From: Anaerolineales bacterium
GTDB taxonomy: Bacteria > Chloroflexota > Anaerolineae > Anaerolineales > Villigracilaceae
Direction of reading: 5' to 3'
DNA: 32,023 bases
NCBI GenBank assembly: GCA_016932715.1
Contig: JAFGCG010000048.1
Coordinates: forward strand, 1-32,023
Within the stretch, counting starts at the first letter, position 1. Every line of letters starts with the position of its first letter. Under the pieces are notes generated by a model. The model was not told the DNA's origin. It did not search any database and saw only the letters and a program-made list of their open reading frames with translations. Of the stretch, positions 5,646-30,003 are shown piece after piece. The translations under genes and the position numbers were made by a program.

Positions 5646-5696
5646 TGGAGTCAGCCAGCTTGCTTCTGCGATACGCCAGCAAGCTGGTTGACTCCA
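5646..5696. repeat. Palindromic intergenic repeat, family B copy 1
   Basis: TGGAGTCAGCCAGCTTGCT (5646-5664) and its complement at 5678-5696 form a 19-bp stem with one mismatch, loop 5665-5677. Nine T residues follow on the plus strand, but no plus-strand gene ends here. Reading the reverse complement, the first 34 or so bases match the element between V-ATPase subunits A and B (20987-21050), so the two are copies of one family. It sits between the ABC permease stop and the lipoprotein start. Confidence 0.75.
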
Positions 5697-14165: not shown

Positions 14166-14477
14166 GTGAACGAGAATCGTATCAGGCAGGTACTTGATAT
14201 TGAGAAGAAGGCTCAGGAAAACTATGAAGCCGCGCTCAATGAAGCCCAAAAACTCCCCGCGCTCGCAGAACAGGAAGCCCAGGAAATCATAAATAAAGCC
14301 CGCAGGGAGGCGCAGGAAGAGGCGCGCCAGATCGTTGCGCGGGCAAAGGCGGCGGGGGAGGTGGACCGCATCCTGGTGGAGGCGGAGGAGAAGAACCGCC
14401 AGCTCGAAGCCCTGGCGATGAGCAACTTCGACCGGGCAGTCAATTACATCCTCGACCGCGTCACCGGCAGAGAGTAA
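14166..14477 (+). CDS. V-type ATPase peripheral-stalk subunit G/H
   Basis: This 103-residue, almost wholly helical, charged protein is rich in Ala, Glu, Gln and Arg (for example AQEIINKARREAQEEARQI). That composition is typical of the stalk subunit called G in Thermus and F in the Enterococcus ntp operon. It forms the peripheral stalk as a right-handed coiled coil with subunit E. The start is GTG at 14166 behind GAGGAGA. It is the first gene of the operon, 5 bases ahead of subunit C. Sequence alone is low in complexity; the operon position makes the call firm. Confidence 0.88.
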   Translation: MNENRIRQVLDIEKKAQENYEAALNEAQKLPALAEQEAQEIINKARREAQEEARQIVARAKAAGEVDRILVEAEEKNRQLEALAMSNFDRAVNYILDRVTGRE

Positions 14478-14482
14478 TCCTC

Positions 14483-15544
14483 ATGGCAAAGAGCGGTGTC
14501 TCCGGGTACGCTGCCATCAGCGCCAGAGTACGGGCAATGTATTCATCCCTGCTCAGCCCGCAGGATTTTGCCCGCCTGAGCGACGCCCCCGACTTTCCCA
14601 CGCTCATCACGCAACTCAAACAGACCGCTTACAGTCCTTACCTTGAAAACCTGAAGGATAAGGATATGACGCCGCAAAAGGTGGACCTGGCGATCAAAGG
14701 GCGGCTGGCGGATTCCTATTACAGCGTCATTCACATGGCGCCCGAGCATGCCCGGTCGCTTCTTAAACAACTCTATCGTTATTTCGAAGTGCAAAACTTG
14801 AAAGCCGTGCTGCGCGCCATCATCACGGATCCTTCCTGGGAGCGGGTGCAGGATGTGCTCTTCCCGATGAGCTCCATGACGGTCCTGCCGGCACAAGCCA
14901 TGCTGGAAGCGGGCAGTGTCGCCGCGGCGGTGGAACTCCTGCAGGGGACGCCATACTACGAAACGCTCTCGTTTGCGATGAAGCGCTACAGCGCCGAACA
15001 GAGCCTGTTCCCGCTCGAAGTGGCATTGGATCTGTACTACTGGCGGCAGCTCTGGCAGGAAGCGAAAAAGCTGCAGGGTCAGGATCGCGGGCAGGCGTCA
15101 CGAATTATCGGATCGCTCATGGACGTGAATAACCTCATGTGGGTGATCCGCTACAGGATCTATCACCAGCTTTCCGAAGAGGAAGTGATCAACTACACCC
15201 TGCCGTTCGGGTACCACGTCCGGGATGAGGATGTGCGCGCCATCGCCGCGGGCGCGGACCTTGCGTCGGTGGTGGGACGCGTTTTTCCGGGCATCCCTGA
15301 CCTGAACGCGCTGCTCGACGACCCGCGCGCGGGGCTCCCGAAGCTGGAGATCGAGCTAAAGCGGCGTCTCATGCAGCAATGCCTGGCTGCGTTTACCGGC
15401 AACCCGTTTCATATCGGTGTGCCGCTCGCCTTTCTGATCCTGAGCGATCTTGAGATCCAGGATTTGACTGTCCTCATCGAAGCCAAGTCATCGCAAATGG
15501 AAGACGAGGAATTTATGCCTTACATGCTGAGACAGGTAGTTTGA
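14483..15544 (+). CDS. ntpC: V-type ATPase subunit C (rotor-cap, d-like)
   Basis: This 353-residue subunit belongs to the AtpC/V0-d family that links the central shaft (D/F) to the membrane rotor ring. Family traits include GYAAISARVRAMYSSLL near the N-terminus, repeated helical bundles with LKAVLRAI, and DVNNLMWVIRYRIY in the middle. Length is normal. The ATG at 14483 lies 5 bases after subunit G/H. The stop TGA (15542-15544) merges with the octamer repeat array, which starts at 15543. Confidence 0.92.
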   Translation: MAKSGVSGYAAISARVRAMYSSLLSPQDFARLSDAPDFPTLITQLKQTAYSPYLENLKDKDMTPQKVDLAIKGRLADSYYSVIHMAPEHARSLLKQLYRYFEVQNLKAVLRAIITDPSWERVQDVLFPMSSMTVLPAQAMLEAGSVAAAVELLQGTPYYETLSFAMKRYSAEQSLFPLEVALDLYYWRQLWQEAKKLQGQDRGQASRIIGSLMDVNNLMWVIRYRIYHQLSEEEVINYTLPFGYHVRDEDVRAIAAGADLASVVGRVFPGIPDLNALLDDPRAGLPKLEIELKRRLMQQCLAAFTGNPFHIGVPLAFLILSDLEIQDLTVLIEAKSSQMEDEEFMPYMLRQVV

Positions 15545-15606
15545 TAGTTCAATAGTTGAGTAGTTGAGTAGTTCAGTAGTTCGATAGTTCGATAGCTGGA
15601 TAGTTA
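15543..15606 (+). repeat. Eight tandem 8-bp units (RRTAGTTS), family C copy 2
   Basis: Eight consecutive octamers such as GATAGTTC, AATAGTTG and AGTAGTTC run without a gap from 15543 to 15606, with one AGCT variant in unit seven. An inverted, looser version (CTACCAAACCACCAAACTAC type) follows at about 15639-15672, so the whole gap between subunits C and I could fold back on itself. The array starts inside the stop codon of subunit C. Confidence 0.75.
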
Positions 15607-15691
15607 GATGGATTTGCAAACGAGGAACTGCAAAACCAGGAAACTACCAAACCACCAAACTACTGAACCAACTTTAGAGACTGGAGTTTCC

Positions 15692-17662
15692 ATGTTCTTC
15701 CCGAGAGAGATGAGCGAGATCGAGTTGATCGTTCCCTCGAAAGATCTTCTGGCTGTGACAAAGGTCTTGAGTGGGTATGGGGTTTTTCATCAGACAGATA
15801 GCAATTATCCAGGGGTGGCTTCCGGCTCTGCCAATACCTGGCAGGAAACCGCCGCACAATATGCCGCGTTGGAACGCCGCGTCCAGACCGTGATGCAGGC
15901 GCTGGGCATCGAGGAGGGACAGCCTCCATCGTCAGACTTCGAGGCGATGGTCGAGACCGAATCCATCCGTCCAATGGTCGATCAGATCGAAGAAGAAGTC
16001 CGGACTACAAGCGACGAACTCTCCAATCAACGCAAACATCTGGAACAGCTGGAAAGCATTCTCCATCAGCTGGAACCTGTGGGGGATATCGACATCGACA
16101 TCAGTTCCCTGCGCGAATCGCGTTACATGTTCTCCATGCTGGGACTCATGCCCTCTGCGAACCTGGATCGCTTGCAGACCAGCCTGGCGCGCGTTCCGCA
16201 TGTCTTCCTGACCCTGCGTTCGGACCCGGCCCGGCCGGTCGTCTGGCTGGCGGGGACAAAAGCCAACGCGGACGTTTTACAGCGCGCCGCCCGCAGCGCT
16301 TATCTGGATCCCTTGCACCTGCCCGGCGATTATCAGGGCACACCGGGGAAGATCATTGAGTCGCTGCGCAACACGATCGAGAGCACACAGCGCAAGATCG
16401 CAGAGTTGCAGGAAACATTGAAGCGTCTGGGTGATGAGCGCAAAGAACAGTTGCGCGACCTGCTCTGGCAGGCGCACACCAGCCGCGTCCTGTCGGACGC
16501 GATCGTGCGCTTCGGTCAATTGCGCCACACCTACGTGGTTACGGGCTGGGTCCCGACCGATGATCTGGAGGAACTTACCCGCCGGCTCAAGGCGGCATCC
16601 CGTGAAATTCTGATCGAAGTATTGCCCACCAGCCGCTTTGGACCAAATCAAAATGTCCCTGTGTCGTTGCAGCCCTCCAGGCTCTTACAACCATTTCAGA
16701 TGCTGGTCAACACGTATGCGCGTCCGCGTTACGGTGAGCTGGACCCGACGCTGCTGATCGCCATTACCTTTCCGATCCTGTTCGGCGCCATGTTCGGCGA
16801 CATCGGTCAGGGACTGGTGCTGGCGCTGCTCGGTTGGCTGATGAGCACCGGAAGGTTTCTTAAAAGTATGTCCAGCCTGGGCGGGTTGATCATTGCCTGC
16901 GGCTTATCGGCTGCCTTCTTTGGCGTGCTCTATGGAAGCATCTTTGGCTTCGAGGAGGATGTCCATCTCTTTGGCATCGAGTTGCGCCCGCTGTGGATGA
17001 GTCCAATCCATCACATCCTGGATATCCTGATCGTTGCCGTTGGCGCGGGAGTGGTCCTGCTGATCCTGGGCTTCCTGATCGGCATTTTTAACTACGCCCG
17101 CTCTCGAAACATGGGGCATCTGCTTTTCGGTCACAATGGGATCGCGGGGCTGACGCTGTATGTTTCCCTGTTGGGGCTGGGCGCCTCGGCCTTCGGGTTG
17201 CTCCCCGTAGCGACGATCGTGTTCGTGGTGCCGGCAGTTCTGGCAGCCATTGCCCTGATGTTCGCGGAAGTATTTATCCACCTGGTGGAAGGACACCGTC
17301 CCTTATACGAAGGCGGCTTCTTCACGTACCTGATCCAGGCGGGTGTCGAATTGTTCGAGGTGGTGATCAGTCTGTTGAGCAATACACTTTCGTATGTCCG
17401 TGTGGGCGCGTTTGCCGTGGCGCATGGAGGATTGAGCGCGGCGATCTTCATCCTTGCCGAGTTGTTCTCAGGTCTTCTTGGACCTATTGGATACTGGCTT
17501 GTGGTCATCCTGGGGAACCTGTTCATCATCGGTTTTGAAGGCTTGATCGTAGGCATTCAAACCATGCGTCTTTCCTACTATGAGTTTTTCGGCAAGTTCT
17601 TTACAGGCGGTGGGATGAGGTTCGAACCGCTTGTGTTGACCCCGGTAAAGAATGAAGAGTAA
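15692..17662 (+). CDS. ntpI: V-type ATPase subunit I (a-type stator membrane subunit)
   Basis: This 656-residue subunit has a large cytoplasmic N-terminal half (about 1-345, with coiled-coil stretches near 95-140 and 240-285) that contacts the stalks. A C-terminal half with about seven or eight membrane segments forms the ion half-channels. The essential arginine is R570 in SYVRVGAFAVAHGG. The frame is open upstream to 15608, but that extension is encoded in the octamer repeat region; the ATG at 15692 has GGAG before it and starts the family-like MSEIELIVPSKD region. It partners with the K ring. Confidence 0.92.
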   Translation: MFFPREMSEIELIVPSKDLLAVTKVLSGYGVFHQTDSNYPGVASGSANTWQETAAQYAALERRVQTVMQALGIEEGQPPSSDFEAMVETESIRPMVDQIEEEVRTTSDELSNQRKHLEQLESILHQLEPVGDIDIDISSLRESRYMFSMLGLMPSANLDRLQTSLARVPHVFLTLRSDPARPVVWLAGTKANADVLQRAARSAYLDPLHLPGDYQGTPGKIIESLRNTIESTQRKIAELQETLKRLGDERKEQLRDLLWQAHTSRVLSDAIVRFGQLRHTYVVTGWVPTDDLEELTRRLKAASREILIEVLPTSRFGPNQNVPVSLQPSRLLQPFQMLVNTYARPRYGELDPTLLIAITFPILFGAMFGDIGQGLVLALLGWLMSTGRFLKSMSSLGGLIIACGLSAAFFGVLYGSIFGFEEDVHLFGIELRPLWMSPIHHILDILIVAVGAGVVLLILGFLIGIFNYARSRNMGHLLFGHNGIAGLTLYVSLLGLGASAFGLLPVATIVFVVPAVLAAIALMFAEVFIHLVEGHRPLYEGGFFTYLIQAGVELFEVVISLLSNTLSYVRVGAFAVAHGGLSAAIFILAELFSGLLGPIGYWLVVILGNLFIIGFEGLIVGIQTMRLSYYEFFGKFFTGGGMRFEPLVLTPVKNEE

Positions 17663-17704
17663 GGGTTTGGCTCAATCGAAATTATTTATCAAGGAGAAAA
17701 AAAG

Positions 17705-18142
17705 ATGATTCTGATTCTTGCAGTGCTGGTGGGTCTAATTCCGGTTATTCCTGCTGTGATTATTTTCCTGCGCGAGCGCGATAAAGTCCCGACGAAGGCC
17801 ACGCGCAATCTTATCTTTGGCTTGAATGGTTTCAACGCGGTCCTTGGACTGATGGCTTCCGGGATCGCCATCGTCTGGCTGTTCTCGCCTCCGGCGGCCC
17901 TGGCAGCAGGCGGGTATCAGGAGGGCGGGACGGTCGATCAATATGCCACCCTTGCCGCTGCGATCTCCACAGGTCTGGCCTGTGTGGGCGCCGGGATCGC
18001 GGTTGCCAGCTCGGGCGCCGCGGCAGTCGGCGCCATTGCCGAGAAACCAGAATCATTCGGTCGTTCCCTGATCTTCGTCGGCCTCTCGGAAGGCATCGCG
18101 ATCTACGGCCTCATCATCTCCTTCCTGATTCTGTTCCGCTAA
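17705..18142 (+). CDS. ntpK: V-type ATPase subunit K (proteolipid rotor ring)
   Basis: This 145-residue proteolipid has four predicted membrane helices, the duplicated 16-kDa design. The C-terminal hairpin is a normal c-type hairpin: a Gly/Ala-rich helix (about 81-112), a polar EKPE loop, and a final helix with carrier Glu129 in GLSEGIAIYG. The N-terminal hairpin (about 2-60) has RERDKVPTKATR as its loop, and its second helix (RNLIFGLNGFNAV) resembles RSLIFVGLSEGIA but has Asn where the Glu would be. There is thus one carboxylate per monomer. Gly follows Glu129, and no Gln or Ser/Thr ligands typical of Na+-binding rings are evident, so protons are the likelier ion. AAGGAG lies upstream. Confidence 0.9.
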   Translation: MILILAVLVGLIPVIPAVIIFLRERDKVPTKATRNLIFGLNGFNAVLGLMASGIAIVWLFSPPAALAAGGYQEGGTVDQYATLAAAISTGLACVGAGIAVASSGAAAVGAIAEKPESFGRSLIFVGLSEGIAIYGLIISFLILFR

Positions 18143-18151
18143 AAGGAATGT

Positions 18152-18457
18152 ATGAAAGTCCTGGTAATCGGACATCCGAAAGCGGTGCTGGGCTTCTCCC
18201 TGGCTGGCGTGAACGGCCGGGCGGTGTCCACCGCGGAAGAGGCTGACAAGGCCCTGAATGAAGCACTTGCCTCGAAGGATATTGGGATCATCCTGGTCAC
18301 ACAGGATGTGGCTCAAATGCTCCAGGAACGCGTCGAAGACCTGAAGTTGCACAGCACCATTCCTCTGGTTGTGGAGATCCCCTCTCCGGCCGGCGTCCCT
18401 GAAGATCAACCGTCACTGAGCGAGGTAGTGTTGAAGGCGATTGGGATTAAGTTGTAG
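18152..18457 (+). CDS. ntpG: V-type ATPase subunit F (central shaft)
   Basis: This 101-residue small Rossmann-like protein has family features MKVLVIGHPKAVLGFSLAGV at the N-terminus, IGIILVTQDVA in the middle and IPLVVEIPSP near the C-terminus. It binds subunit D in the central shaft. The start lies 9 bases after subunit K. It ends AAG TTG TAG; the following gap is filled by a repeat element. The ancestral junction with subunit E was probably an overlap of the AAGTTATGAG type. Confidence 0.9.
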   Translation: MKVLVIGHPKAVLGFSLAGVNGRAVSTAEEADKALNEALASKDIGIILVTQDVAQMLQERVEDLKLHSTIPLVVEIPSPAGVPEDQPSLSEVVLKAIGIKL

Positions 18458-18460
18458 CTA

Positions 18461-18588
18461 TGTCGTTGCGAGGAGCCGCCAAGTTTTGTAGGGGCGCAAC
18501 ACGTTGCGCCCGGCGGCGACGAAGCAATCTTGTTTATTGTTTTTAAAAGTATTTCGTGCGAGATTGCTTTGCTGCGCTCGTAATGACA
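18461..18588. repeat. Palindromic repeat, family D copy 1 (between subunits F and E)
   Basis: The ends TGTCGTTGCGAG (18461-18472) and CTCGTAATGACA (18577-18588) are complements with two wobble positions. Inner GAAGCAATCT/AGATTGCTTT arms match copy 2 at 29430-29544. A separate 9-bp hairpin, GGGCGCAAC/GTTGCGCCC (18492-18511), sits inside and is absent from copy 2, which suggests a repeat nested in a repeat. TAAGTT flanks the element on both sides (18448-18453 and 18596-18601). Confidence 0.75.
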
Positions 18589-18601
18589 GATAAGGTAAGT
18601 T

Positions 18602-19215
18602 ATGAGACCTGAAGAAGAAATCGAAGTCCTGTCACGTGCCATCTTGAAGGAAGCAGAAGCGGATGCCGCGCAGATCCGGGAAGAGGCAAAGGAAAAGGCG
18701 GATGCTATTCGTCAACGCGCCCGCGCAGAGGCGGATCAGGAACGCCAGCAGATCCTCGATCAGGCGCGAGGGGAGGCGGAGCGCCTGCGCAGCCAGGTGG
18801 TGGCGAATGCCCAGTTGAAAGCCCGCACCCTCGAACTGGCGCATCGTGAAAAACTCCTGGAGCGCGTCTTCGAGGCTGCAAAGCAGAAACTGCCGGCCGT
18901 CCAAAAGCGCGCCGATTACAACAAGCTCGTCGCGCAATTGCTGCGGGAAGCGGTTGTCCAATTGAAAGCGAACAAAGCTCGTATCCGGGCGGATGGCGTC
19001 ACGCAAAAGATTTTAAGTAACGGCACACTTGACGAATTATCCAAAGAATTGAACGCGGAATTAACAATGGGTGAGGCGCTGGAGGAAGGCTCCGGAGTTG
19101 TGGTGGATGCTTCCGATGGACATTTGCATTTTGACAACACGCTCGAGACGCGCTTGCACCGGCTGCAAAGCTCCCTCCGCTCTGCGGTGTATCACGTCCT
19201 GATGGGAGAGAAGTT

Positions 19216-19219
<4 letters not shown>
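18602..19219 (+). CDS. ntpE: V-type ATPase peripheral-stalk subunit E
   Basis: This 205-residue subunit has an N-terminal charged coiled coil (about 1-100), for pairing with G/H, and a C-terminal globular domain (about 105-205) with the family's GSGVVVDASDGHLHFDNTLE region. The ATG directly follows the TAAGTT flank of the family D repeat. Its TGA overlaps the ATG of subunit A as ATGA (19216-19219), intact coupling of the kind apparently lost at the F/E and A/B junctions. Confidence 0.92.
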
Positions 19220-20980
<1,761 letters not shown>

Positions 20981-20982
<2 letters not shown>

Positions 20983-21066
20983 TTTGTGGAGTCAGCCAGC
21001 TTGCTGGCGTATTGCAGGAGCACACCCCTAAAGGGGCGTCCTGCACTCCAAAATCGTATTTATTGA
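20981..21066. mobile_element. 86-bp palindromic insertion, family B copy 2
   Basis: The insert carries a core with inverted ends TGGAGT (20987-20992) and ACTCCA (21045-21050). Inside are hairpin CCAGC-TT-GCTGG (20996-21007) and a compound hairpin GCAGGA...TCCTGC (21014-21044) closed by CCCCT/AGGGG. Its left 34 or so bases match the reverse complement of 5646-5696. It is bracketed by an exact 21-bp duplication of the A-subunit end. It encodes no protein, so it would need to be mobilised in trans or arise by slippage. Confidence 0.75.
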
Positions 21067-21087
21067 AATTAGATTCGGAGTACAGAT
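21067..21087 (+). repeat. 21-bp direct repeat, right copy
   Basis: It is identical to 20960-20980 and runs into the ATG of subunit B (21086-21088). Read in the frame of subunit A it continues to TGA, so the uninterrupted ancestor would have had an ATGA stop/start overlap. Confidence 0.95.
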
Positions 21088-22513
21088 GAGCAGTGTGATC
21101 GTACAAAGTGGACAGGAAGTTCTCGGTGTCAGGAGTATCGCCGGTCCGATCATGATCGTGGAGGGTGCCGCCAACGTCAGTTATGACGAGGTGGTGGAGA
21201 TCCGCGATGCCCAGGGCCGCATGCGCCTGGGACGTGTGCTGGAAGTCGGCGAGAAAGTTTGCGTGGTCCAGGTGTTTGCCGGGTCCACGGGACTCTCGAT
21301 CGATGGAACGAGCGTCCGATTTTTGGGAGATACCTTGCGCATTCCCGTTGCGGAGGAAATGCTCGGACGCGTCTTCGGCGGCTTGGGCAACCCCGTCGAC
21401 GGCGGACCGCAGCCTTTAACTGACACGTACGCGGACGTCAACGGGGCGCCGATCAACCCGACGGCGCGCGTCTATCCGCGCGATTACATTCAGACGGGCA
21501 TCTCCGCCATCGATGGCTTGAACACGCTCCTGCGCGGGCAGAAGCTGCCGATCTTCTCGGGCGCGGGCATGCCGCACGACCAGCTCGCGGCGCAGATCGT
21601 ACGCCAGGCAACCCTGGGCGCCGAGGTGGGCAAGCAGGGGACGCAGTCGGAGCAGTTCGCGGTGGTGTTCGCCGCGATGGGCGTGAAGCATGATGTGGCG
21701 GACTTCTTCCGCCGTTCCTTCACCGAAAGCGGTGCCCTGACGCGCGTTGCCATGTTCCTCAACCTGGCGGATGATCCCCCGGTCGAGCGTCTGGTCACCC
21801 CGCGCGCCGCCCTGACGCTGGCGGAATATCTTGCCTACGAGTGCCAGATGCACGTGCTGGTCATCCTGACCGATATGACCAACTATTGCGAGGCGCTGCG
21901 TCAGATCTCGAACATCCGCGGCGAAGTGCCAAGCCGCAAAGGTTATCCCGGTTACTTGTACAGCGACCTGGCGGCGATGTACGAACGCACGGGCCGCATC
22001 AGCACGAGCGAAGGCTCGATCACCCAGATCCCCATCCTGACCATGCCCAGTGACGACATCACACATCCCGTCCCTGACCTGACCGGCTACATCACCGAAG
22101 GTCAGATCACCCTGGGGCGTGACCTTGATCAAAAGGGCATTTACCCGCCGATCGCTGTTCTCCCGAGTCTTTCGCGTTTGATGAAGGATGGCATCGGCAA
22201 GGGCCGGACGCGCGAGGATCATTCACATTGGGGCGCGCAGCTCTATGCCGCGTACGCTCACATGCAGGACGTGCGCGCACTGGCATCCGTCATTGGCGAG
22301 GAAGAATTGGGCGAGGTGGACCAGAAGTACCTGCAGTTCGGGCGCGCCTTCGAGCGGGAGTTCGTCAACCAGGCGCTGACGGAGAACCGCACCATCGAGC
22401 AAACCCTGGACATTGGCTGGCGGCTGCTATCCATGCTGCCGAAGGAAGAGCTGACGCGCGTCACCCTGGACGAGATCAAGCGTTACCATAAAGGTGAAGA
22501 TGGCAGTTCTTAA
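21086..22513 (+). CDS. ntpB: V-type ATPase regulatory subunit B
   Basis: This 475-residue non-catalytic nucleotide-binding-fold subunit alternates with A in the hexamer. Features are the N-terminal barrel, [14 protein letters not shown], a degenerate P-loop region [15 protein letters not shown] in place of Gxxxx[17 protein letters not shown] and [14 protein letters not shown]. Length is normal. The start lies inside the right copy of the 21-bp repeat, with CGGAG about 10 bases before it. That ribosome site is itself part of the duplicated sequence, so duplication supplied the gene with its own site. It overlaps subunit D by 14 bases. Confidence 0.96.
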
Positions 22514-23129
22514 CGTCGCTCCCACCCGGTCGAACCTGATCCGCATCAAAAAGGAATTGCAGTTCGCGCGCGAAGGCTATGAGATCCTCGACCGCAAGCG
22601 TGAGGTGCTGACGACGGAACTGGTCCGCGTGGCGCATGAAGCGGATGTCCTGCAAAAGGAAGTCTGGAAGATTTTCGAAACCGCCTACCGCGCCCTCGAA
22701 AAGGCGCAGCTTACCCTGGGCAGCGACCACGTCGAGTGGGCGGCGCTGGCTGCCAACAAAACCGTGGACGTGCACCTCAAGCTGCGCGGGATCATGGGCG
22801 TTGCCATTCCCGTGATCGAGGCGCGCGGCGAGCCGGAAAAGATGCTCTACAGCCTGAGCGGGACGAACGCCGCCCTCGACGAAGCCAGCGCGGCATTCCG
22901 CGAGGTGCTGATCAGGACGCCGCAGTTGTCCATGCTGGTGACGGCGGTCTGGCGCCTGGCGGGTGAACTGCGCAAGACCCAGCGGCGGGTCAATGCGCTG
23001 CAGCATATCTTCATCCCGGCCTATGAAGAGACAGTTACATTTATAATTAGTTCACTGGAGGAACGGGAGCGCGAAGAGACATTCCGTTTGAAGTGGTTGA
23101 AGACCAGGATGGCTAATCAACAAGGATGA
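22500..23129 (+). CDS. ntpD: V-type ATPase subunit D (central shaft)
   Basis: This 209-residue subunit forms long N- and C-terminal helices that make the rotating coiled coil in the A/B hexamer. Family signatures are [15 protein letters not shown] at the start and [21 protein letters not shown] near the end. A GTG at 22494 is also in frame, but the ATG at 22500 gives the canonical start, overlapping the end of subunit B. The last codons GGA TGA (23124-23129) lie inside a GGATGA-type repeat, so the natural C-terminus may have been trimmed or extended slightly. It closes a complete nine-subunit operon. Confidence 0.94.
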
Positions 23130-25403: not shown

Positions 25404-25440
25404 CTCTTGTACGTAGCACGAATTCTCGCGTGGAGGAATG

Positions 25441-27108
25441 ATGACAGACTTGATCAAGCAAATCACAGACGATTTGCAGAAGCAGATCGAGGGATTTGAG
25501 CCTGAACTTAGCGTTAGCGACATTGGAACGGTGATGGAAGCAGGTGACGGTATTGCTCGTGTACACGGATTGGCGAATGTAAGAGCACAGGAACTGGTCC
25601 AGTTTTCCAATGGGGTGATGGGGACAGCCTTTAACCTCGAACAAGACAGCGTGGGCGTGATCATCATGGGCGACTATGGGGCCATCATCGAAGGTATGTC
25701 GGTGCGCGGCACCGGCCGCATCGCTTCGGTGCCGGTTGGCGATGCAATGATCGGGCGCGTGGTGAACGCATTGGGCGAGCCGATCGACGGCAAGGGTCCC
25801 ATCGCCACCACAGGCTTTCGACCGATTGAGCGCATTGCGCCCGGTGTGGTGCAGCGCCAGGATGTGGACACGCCCGTCCAAACGGGGATCAAATCCATCG
25901 ATGCCATGATCCCGGTCGGGCGGGGTCAGCGTGAATTGATCATTGGCGATCGCCAGACAGGGAAAACAGCTATTGCCATCGATACGATCATCAATCAAAA
26001 GGGCCAGGACCTTATTTGTATCTATGTTGCCATCGGTCAGAAAAAGGCTGCCATCGCCCGGACGGTGGGTGTTCTCGAGCGCAATGGCGCCATGGAACAT
26101 ACGATTGTCGTGGTGGCGGCTGCCGATGAATCGGCGGCTTTGCAATATATCGTACCTTATTCCGGCTGTGCCATTGGTGAAGAATTCCTGGAAACGGGCC
26201 GCGATGCCCTGATCATTTACGATGATCTTTCCAAACATGCCTGGGCGTATCGCCAGGTCTCTTTGCTGCTGCGCCGTCCGCCTGGACGTGAAGCTTATCC
26301 CGGCGATGTGTTCTACCTGCATTCGCGCCTGCTTGAGCGCGCGGTACGCCTCGCAAATAAGTATGTGATCGTAAAGAAGGATTTCAATGGAGCAATTGCT
26401 TCTGAAAAGGATGCTGTCAACGGAGAAATCTATGGCGGACCCATCGCGAAAGATGAAGCTGAAAAAGCCCACAAGGAGATGAGCAGCCCCGAGGATCATA
26501 AGATCGTCAAAGTGCGAGGCACGGGTGGTTCGCTCACGGCGCTGCCGATCATCGAAACATTGCTTGGTGATGTGTCCGCTTACATTCCCACGAACGTGAT
26601 TTCCATTACAGACGGCCAGATCTATCTTGAGTCCAATCTTTTCAATGCGGGTATCCGCCCGGCCGTGAACGTCGGGATCTCGGTTTCGCGGGTCGGTGGT
26701 GATGCGCAGACCAAAGCGATGAAACAGGTGGCAGGTCGCTTGCGCCTCGATATGGCTTCCTATCGTGAGCTGGCGGCGTTTGCCCTGATGGCTTCGGATC
26801 TCGATAAAGCGACCCAGCAGCAACTGGGTCGTGGACAGCGCATGCAGGAGATCCTCAAGCAGCCGCAGTATTCTCCCATGTCGCTTTCAGAGCAGGTGAT
26901 CGTGCTGTTTGCGGGGACCAACGGCTATGCTGATCAGGTGCCCGTGGCGAGCATGGCGCAGTGGCAAGCCGATTTGCTTAAATTCATGGAAGCGTCCCAT
27001 CCTGAAATTGGGCGGGACATTGCCGAAAAGAAGATGATCACGGATAGCAGCCGTACAAATATGATAAAAGCCCTCGACGCTTTCCGTCACTCCTGGCAGG
27101 CGGCATAA
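25441..27108 (+). CDS. atpA: F1-ATPase subunit alpha
   Basis: This 555-residue non-catalytic subunit of F1 has a normal N-terminal barrel, P-loop GDRQTGKT (residues 169-176), [12 protein letters not shown], and the arginine-finger region VSRVGG. An extra segment of about 50 residues (about 307-358, charged, with [18 protein letters not shown]) lies between [12 protein letters not shown] and [14 protein letters not shown], where most alpha subunits have only a few residues. This explains a length above the usual 500-510. Two ATGs are in tandem at 25438 and 25441; the second gives better spacing from GGAGG. It heads an alpha-gamma-beta-epsilon cluster; no delta gene precedes it. Confidence 0.96.
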
Positions 27109-27111
27109 GCG

Positions 27112-29423
<2,312 letters not shown>

Positions 29424-29429
29424 ATTTTA

Positions 29430-29544
29430 TGTCGTTGCGAGTGGCGCTGTTGATCGAGACGTTCCGTCGAGACCAAACGCCACGAAGCAATCTCCAAATC
29501 AGGAGGAGATTGCTTCGTCGCCCGCTGGGCTCCTCGCAACGACA
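29430..29544. repeat. Palindromic repeat, family D copy 2 (between beta and epsilon)
   Basis: Perfect 12-bp inverted ends TGTCGTTGCGAG (29430-29441) and CTCGCAACGACA (29533-29544) enclose a 14-bp perfect hairpin (29482-29495 with 29505-29518). The flanks GTAAATTTTATG and GTAAACTATGA look like a degenerate duplication of the beta/epsilon junction. The stem could reduce epsilon expression relative to beta. Confidence 0.8.
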
Positions 29545-29556
29545 TGGATGTAAACT

Positions 29557-30003
29557 ATGACCATTCGTTGTGAAATCGTTTCGCAGGATCGAACCGTGTT
29601 CCAGGGCGATGTGGATATCGTCATTTTGCCGGGCGCGGCTGGTGAAATGGGTATTCTGCCTCATCACGCTCCGGTACTTACCAGCCTCAAGTATGGAGTG
29701 ATCAAGATCCGCCACGGTGACAAGGAGGAGTTGTTCACGGTTGCAGGCGGGATGGCGGAGGTCCAGCCTGACATTGTGACGATCCTGGCTGATGCGGCAG
29801 AGAATATCAAGGAAATTGATGTCACCCGCGCCCAGGCCGCCAAAAAGCGTGCGGAGGATGCACTTGCCGGGCTCAAACCCGAAGACCACGATGCCTACCT
29901 CAGAATGGAAGCCGCATTGCGGCGTTCCACCCTGCGGCTGGATGTGGTCCGGCGTTATCATCAGGTCAGGGATGGGTTTACTGAGCACGACGCTTCGATG
30001 TAG
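29557..30003 (+). CDS. atpC: F1-ATPase subunit epsilon
   Basis: This 148-residue subunit has the N-terminal beta-sandwich (about 1-85) with MGILPHHAPVLTSL, and a C-terminal two-helix arm (about 88-148), which in the family can inhibit ATP hydrolysis. It couples gamma to the c-ring in complete enzymes. No good ribosome site is seen just before the ATG, as expected if the repeat displaced the original coupling to beta. Confidence 0.93.
   Translation: MTIRCEIVSQDRTVFQGDVDIVILPGAAGEMGILPHHAPVLTSLKYGVIKIRHGDKEELFTVAGGMAEVQPDIVTILADAAENIKEIDVTRAQAAKKRAEDALAGLKPEDHDAYLRMEAALRRSTLRLDVVRRYHQVRDGFTEHDASM

Follow-up and report, generated by a model that had tools for sequence, protein, structure and literature searches.

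In the window, the whole stretch of 32,023 bases that was analysed (contig C92 of a genome of 4.94 Mb in 195 contigs, 94.67% complete), the genes for the V-type ATPase subunits A and B are separated by an 86-bp insert (20981-21066), which is flanked by an exact 21-bp direct repeat. The 21 identical bases bracketing an 86-base insert, which an initial annotation of this DNA had described, are thus exact at 20960-20980 and 21067-21087. In the whole window, this pair is the sole exact direct repeat of at least 16 bp at a start-to-start distance of 20-400 bp. The features at the junction and a second element of the same family are as follows:

5647-5695, no strand: second REPIN of the same family; folds as one long hairpin (z = -8.97); without a flanking direct repeat
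19216-20982, + strand: V-type ATPase subunit A (Pfam; NCBIfam NF003220, 901.1 bits, cut-off 470)
20960-20980, + strand: 21-bp direct repeat copy 1, last codons of subunit A; carries the ancestral GGAG (20970-20973); single copy at the junction in 44 relatives
20980-20982, + strand: TAG stop of subunit A (ORF 19216-20982), spanning the insertion edge
20981-20984, no strand: AGTT, 4 nt of the insert beyond the conserved element edge (TNT/GGAG)
20985-21052, no strand: REPIN (REP doublet), TGT-GGAGTC-hairpin (CAGCCAGCTTGCTGGC) ... variant hairpin (GCAGGAGCACACCCCTAAAGGGGCGTCCTGC)-ACTCC-AAA; GGAG...CTCC = 20988-21049
21053-21066, no strand: 14 nt (ATCGTATTTATTGA) of the insert beyond the conserved element edge; final 13 nt without another exact match in the assembled genome
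21067-21087, + strand: 21-bp direct repeat copy 2; source of the GGAG at 21077-21080 and of the AT of the subunit B ATG
21086-22513, + strand: V-type ATPase subunit B (Pfam; NCBIfam NF003235, 732.5 bits, cut-off 349)

The reading frames of subunit A and subunit B are both intact despite the insert. As had been proposed, the insertion edge supplies the TAG in place, and subunit A is kept. In copy 2 of the repeat, GGAG lies 5 nt 5' of the subunit B ATG; this fits the earlier suggestion that the duplication gave subunit B a ribosome site of its own, though one copied from the end of subunit A. The V-type ATPase gene cluster (14166-23129) and an F-type ATPase gene cluster (25438-30003) lie close together on the one contig, some subunits being assigned by position only. 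Tandem repeats of short period are found at 15536-15663 between two genes of the V-type cluster.

The palindromic part of the insert is smaller than the whole 86 bases to which it had been ascribed: it extends over 20988-21049, where two adjacent hairpins are enclosed by a 5-bp outer stem with three weak pairs further out, and the remaining outer bases of the insert lie beyond the element. The hairpin pair is a REPIN, two REP hairpins head to head with the structure GGAGT-stem-AGCTTGCT-stem ... ACTCC. It has the tetranucleotide head GGAG(T) in front of an imperfect palindrome and consists of two inverted REPs with a short spacer, as REPINs do. Its right half is a variant in which AGCACACCCCTAAAGGGGCGT replaces the standard loop, and this variant recurs with changes at four other loci (L008, L048, L098 and L102). 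The single-strand DNA fold of the insert has a z of -2.17, equalled by 6 of 200 shuffles, and is therefore above most shuffles without being extreme. A search of 20800-21300 against Rfam gave no match at E values up to 1. The 13-nt tail of the insert has no other exact copy in the assembled genome (four places match with one mismatch). Because a second exact copy of these outer bases is lacking there, no donor with these flanks was found.

A first DNA search for the junction flanks covered 40 relatives and gave two-sided matches in genomes of the same genus and family. The flank matches adjoin and overlap across the repeat, as they should in a genome that lacks the insert and one of the copies. 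A wider search covered 152 genomes of the family, the window's own included, and the 41 with both flanks adjacent were scored; all 41 junctions are empty, 39 of them exactly, with offsets of -3 in G070 and +12 in G068. Together with G003, G021 and G067 (read from sequence), this gives 44 relatives with a readable A/B junction, a set that leaves out one-sided matches, two-sided matches far from the junction (G066) and matches at REP copies only. The insert and one 21-bp copy are absent in 44 of 44, and the insertion therefore arose in the window's own lineage. The nearest relative is just about 80% identical at this locus.

In three relatives (G006, G007 and G024) the single repeat copy runs directly into ATGAGC, and TCATGAG or TAATGAG forms are found in others. 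The overlap of the A stop with the B start, which the initial annotation had expected to reappear as ATGA upon removal of the insert and one copy, is thus seen directly in relatives as ATGA or as the variants TAATG and TCATGA. Conservation of the insert in distant relatives, which the same annotation had held against a recent insertion, was found in none of the 44. At the empty junctions read as sequence, GGAG is present within the end of A with one or two neighbouring-base variants, G021 with GGAA being the exception. Because it is already there, the ribosome site of B was copied and not newly made, and the kept GGAG would fit a role as the B ribosome site within the end of A. An assembly artefact of the draft genome is scarcely credible as an explanation for the junction: the contig is one of 195, but both frames are intact, the insert contains a complete member of the family whose variant type is found again, with changes, at the four loci named above, and in our judgement chimeras rarely look so.

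In the window's own genome, 18 bases of the left half of the insert match 23 places with at most two mismatches, itself included, and the reversed pattern matches none. The half-site GGAGTN{2,7}AGCTTGCT occurs 38 times, always with 5-base spacing (GGAGTN5AGCTTGCT), against one hit for the reversed control. The loop is strand-asymmetric, the opposite loop AGCAAGCT occurring once compared with the 38 exact half-sites. In 113 distinct half-sites, pairing at the three inner columns of the stem reaches 94-96% and involves several pair types (shuffle means 0.43-0.71), whereas the values for the two outer columns are 52% and 59% (0.34 and 0.38 in shuffles); inner pairing also exceeds slid controls. 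The REP stems covary, and the structure is conserved through compensatory changes. The conserved edge reaches three bases past the head: among 194 ends, 99% have T at position -1 and 93% have it at position -3. A search requiring a tail 38-100 nt behind the head returned 97 distinct inverted doublets from the own genome, relatives and other Chloroflexota genomes, 24 of them from own-genome loci. A further 37 half-site hits, a number in which the same place can recur, were passed over because a tail was missing from this range or the end of the locus was too near. Under a stricter doublet rule, 39 inverted doublets and 31 leftover half-sites were obtained, several of the latter visibly doublets. 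The second family copy that had been proposed near 5646-5696 is real, at 5647-5695.

The exact half-site is present in 8 of 18 genomes of the genus: the window's genome has 38 copies, G004 has 21, and the remaining six have 2-4 each. An exact 21-mer of the REP, GGAGTCAGCCAGCTTGCTGGC, is found in at least 60 stretches of the GTDB collection. Among the matches listed, 57 are titled Chloroflexi, Chloroflexota, Anaerolineae, Anaerolineales or Anaerolineaceae, two Brevefilum fermentans, which taxonomy places as Candidatus Brevefilum in Anaerolineales, and one Streptomyces. The REP family is thus, among the matches listed, almost only found in Chloroflexota.

In three of the at least 60 GTDB stretches listed, a RAYT gene directly adjoins the REP of the window. 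In L262 (titled Anaerolineales) the gene has REPs of the window type on both sides, in L235 (titled Chloroflexi) the exact REP is located downstream and a REP of the same type upstream, and in L273 (titled Anaerolineaceae) the RAYT is broken into two frames, its downstream REP being exact and its upstream REP having two mismatches. The RAYT proteins of L262 and L235 share an N-H-Y-H motif and the stretch YEKSYLARLRY, which we take to be catalytic. Both exceed the NCBIfam cut-off of 80 for NF047646 (89.2 and 93.6 bits). In the window's genome (94.67% complete, 195 contigs), a match to this cognate type of RAYT was not found; thus, the mover has been lost, is unassembled, or was another RAYT.

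The search for transposase genes covered Y1 and RAYT genes. In the own genome, six matches to Y1 transposase genes were considered as movers and rejected, none having a GGAGT REP within the 1.8-3.4 kb around it. One tested own-genome RAYT above the NCBIfam cut-off adjoins a GTAG-tagged hairpin, not a GGAGT REP. An IS200-like gene of the own genome (L024) is bounded by CCCCGCAGCTTGCTGCG-type hairpins with the loop of the REP, AGCTTGCT; as a mover it was dismissed, since despite the same loop it has a CCCC-type foot and an internal stop. Genes of the Y1 type are present in 9 of the 9 genus genomes asked, and relatives of one RAYT in 13 of 18. A RAYT of G007 (NF047646, 114.3 bits) is flanked on either side by GGAGT-headed hairpins whose loop differs, and GGAGC- or GGAGT-headed hairpins lie near RAYT-like genes of G008, G013 and G017. 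In G015 (L178), a RAYT-like gene adjoins a tandem array whose unit, about 123 bp long, contains a GTAG-headed hairpin.

The initial annotation had proposed that a short, non-coding mobile repeat had inserted here recently and had left a long target duplication. The first part of this reading is supported by the insertion in the window's own lineage, the empty relatives and the other copies of the element. The second part, the duplication as a product of transposition, is not supported; among the doublets compared, a long duplication is no trait of the family. The window copy has a flank score of 21, and the other 96 of the 97 distinct doublets score 5-10 (three at 10, one at 9, the rest 5-8); a long flanking repeat is therefore present in 1 of 97, and the flanks of about 20 bp anticipated around other copies are absent from 96. 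Copies without flanking duplications, which had been named as evidence against the reading, are thus the rule. In 34 doublets each half has an exact head, an exact loop and a perfect inner stem, which is a rough indication that they are young, and these likewise score 5-10; a looser rule gave 45 exact-loop doublets. An earlier set of 53 doublets gave the same picture, with no long flanking repeats as a family trait. In a control of 9302 mispaired flanks, 1.1% reach a score of 10, six reach 13 or more, and the largest is 19.

It might be argued that transposition of this family normally makes duplications of about 20 bp, which have mostly been erased by mutation, and that the window copy is the youngest. 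The clean insertion with an exact 21-bp copy of the ancestral segment agrees with this view, as do the weak flanking matches with a score of 10 at L261, L262 and L266, the one at L266 being 13 nt long with one mismatch; mispaired flanks would give about one such score per 96 by chance. Nevertheless, it is quite unlikely, as 96 of the 97 doublets, including the 34 that appear young, score no more than 10, and as members of the IS200/IS605 family are described without larger target duplications in passages of PMC2817692. The mean flank score of the other doublets is 6.57, compared with 6.29 for mispaired flanks. A weak tendency to short flanking repeats would be compatible with these data, a regular 20-bp duplication would not, and we lean against a regular long target duplication as the explanation. 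No REPIN insertion with a long target duplication was found in the passages of open-licence PubMed Central papers.

The terminal inverted repeats GGAGT/ACTCC together with the duplication are MITE-like at first sight. An origin as a MITE of a DDE transposase making long duplications, or as an unrelated repair insertion that copied a REPIN, is nonetheless highly improbable: a hairpin doublet with an oriented loop and a conserved tetranucleotide head agrees with a REPIN, as do the RAYT genes that adjoin the REP, and the 97 distinct doublets contain no target duplication of fixed length.

Elements of this family are often located close behind stop codons. Of 189 ends with sufficient upstream sequence, 39 are preceded by the stop of a frame of at least 100 codons at a distance of 3-7 nt from GGAG, compared with 9 at 8-12 nt and 2 at 13-17 nt; among the 97 doublets, 38 have one end with such a stop. 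In the window copy, TAG lies 5 nt before GGAG and 2 nt before the element edge. For GTAG repeats, passages of PMC3733652 describe termini that in many cases provide the adjacent frame with a TAG stop.

This position would be accounted for by a two-step history, in which a 39-bp change (the 21-bp duplication plus 18 nt of filler) separated A and B, and a REPIN subsequently entered behind the new TAG, at a distance of 2 nt (edge) to 5 nt (GGAG), without making a duplication. Such a history would also explain why the REPIN has no duplication of its own and why 18 nt lie outside its conserved edges. It requires two rare events at one spot, however, and an intermediate with the duplication but without the REPIN is not present among the 44 relatives; as a distinct explanation, it is tenable but tentative.

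The reading preferred here, with a probability of roughly 0.6, is that a REPIN was inserted at the A/B junction, that the duplication and the 18 extra bases arose outside the normal reaction, either by repair or slippage or by an earlier duplication, and that the result was kept by selection. A RAYT, a single-strand HUH enzyme, would be expected to move REPINs of the GGAG-tagged family in trans, and membership of the window REPIN in this family suggests that a RAYT joined the copy into the A/B junction in the window's lineage. Gap repair or template slippage at a single insertion may have produced the 21-bp duplication together with the 18 extra bases. By another route, a slightly earlier duplication may have opened a gap between stop and ribosome site, which the REPIN then entered a few bases behind the stop, as many copies do. 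The odds are similar for the two-step route and for one insertion that was abnormally repaired. Selection would have kept the insertion because the duplication preserved the last codons of A as well as GGAG and ATG of B, while a plain insertion in the overlap would damage one of the two operon partners. As a consequence, B would be started from a copied ribosome site of its own, with a hairpin spacer in front of it, and would no longer be coupled to the stop of A. A more general proposal, that RAYT insertion close behind a stop codon can duplicate at least 20 bp of target via staggered nicks or copy-back priming, that only such events survive at overlapping junctions, and that REPINs could thereby uncouple genes without loss of protein, is unlikely.

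The window element is a further REPIN, a kind of bacterial repeat that is already known, and its scar is unusual. According to passages on REPINs or BIMEs mobilised by RAYT (TnpA-REP), namely the doublets of Pseudomonas fluorescens SBW25 (PMC3116915) and the REPtrons of E. coli and Stenotrophomonas (PMC8266576, PMC2817692), these systems share with it the inverted pair of REP hairpins, the conserved head, compensatory stem changes, a RAYT gene beside the same REP (here in other genomes) and a position close behind stop codons (there of rayt genes). The REP heads nearest the RAYT of L235 point the same way, and two inverted REPs are described in the passages of PMC2817692. In contrast to those systems as described there, the head is TNT-GGAGT instead of GTAG or GT(A/G)G, the loop is AGCTTGCT, the copy number is modest (38 half-sites), the cognate RAYT was not found in the own genome, and one copy carries a 21-bp duplication. 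The GTAG- and CGTC-tagged palindromic repeats, of which GTAG repeats are reported in Chloroflexi, are likewise short tagged palindromes with dimers, TAG-supplying termini and some copies in reading frames, but the tag differs, and the passages of PMC3733652 contain no word beginning with GGAG. The single-strand transposition of IS200/IS605 involves a related enzyme family and hairpin-bounded DNA (passages of PMC6006769); a larger target duplication is not expected there according to the passages of PMC2817692, in contrast to the 21 bp at the window copy. For this insertion, the empty site can be read in 44 relatives, and related genomes have a RAYT next to the same REP; its anomalous scar has to be accounted for by any model of insertion. 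It may also serve as a natural experiment on whether balanced output of A and B of the V-type ATPase needs overlapping, coupled genes.

In the own genome, 8 of 20 listed elements lie within mechanically called frames of at least 90 aa, and three of these (L006, L011 and L019) were looked at further. REPINs in frame within a putative recJ and a glycerate-kinase-like gene were observed at L006 and L019, together with L223, L214, L217 and L219. The site of the recJ copy was aligned with two relatives, one with a decayed palindrome, and that of the glycerate-kinase-like copy with nine, about three of which have GGAGTC-like palindromic remnants. Since the palindromes at the corresponding sites of some relatives are decayed or rewritten, both look like old coding insertions. 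Alignment of four loci for empty sites of other copies left out the histidine-kinase copy (L011); the RR/HK locus had no aligned relative, and at L061, between a stop and a ribosome site, the gaps in relatives do not align.

Elsewhere in the window, an integron integrase gene (300-1328, + strand; TIGR02249, 435.5 bits, cut-off 265) lies near the contig end. A long palindromic repeat (TGTCGTTGCGAG ... CTCGCAACGACA) is located at 29430-29546 between the stop of the F-type ATPase beta gene and the next start, a few bases behind TAA. A similar TGTCATTGCGAG element, resembling this repeat, lies behind a stop in G004 (L209).
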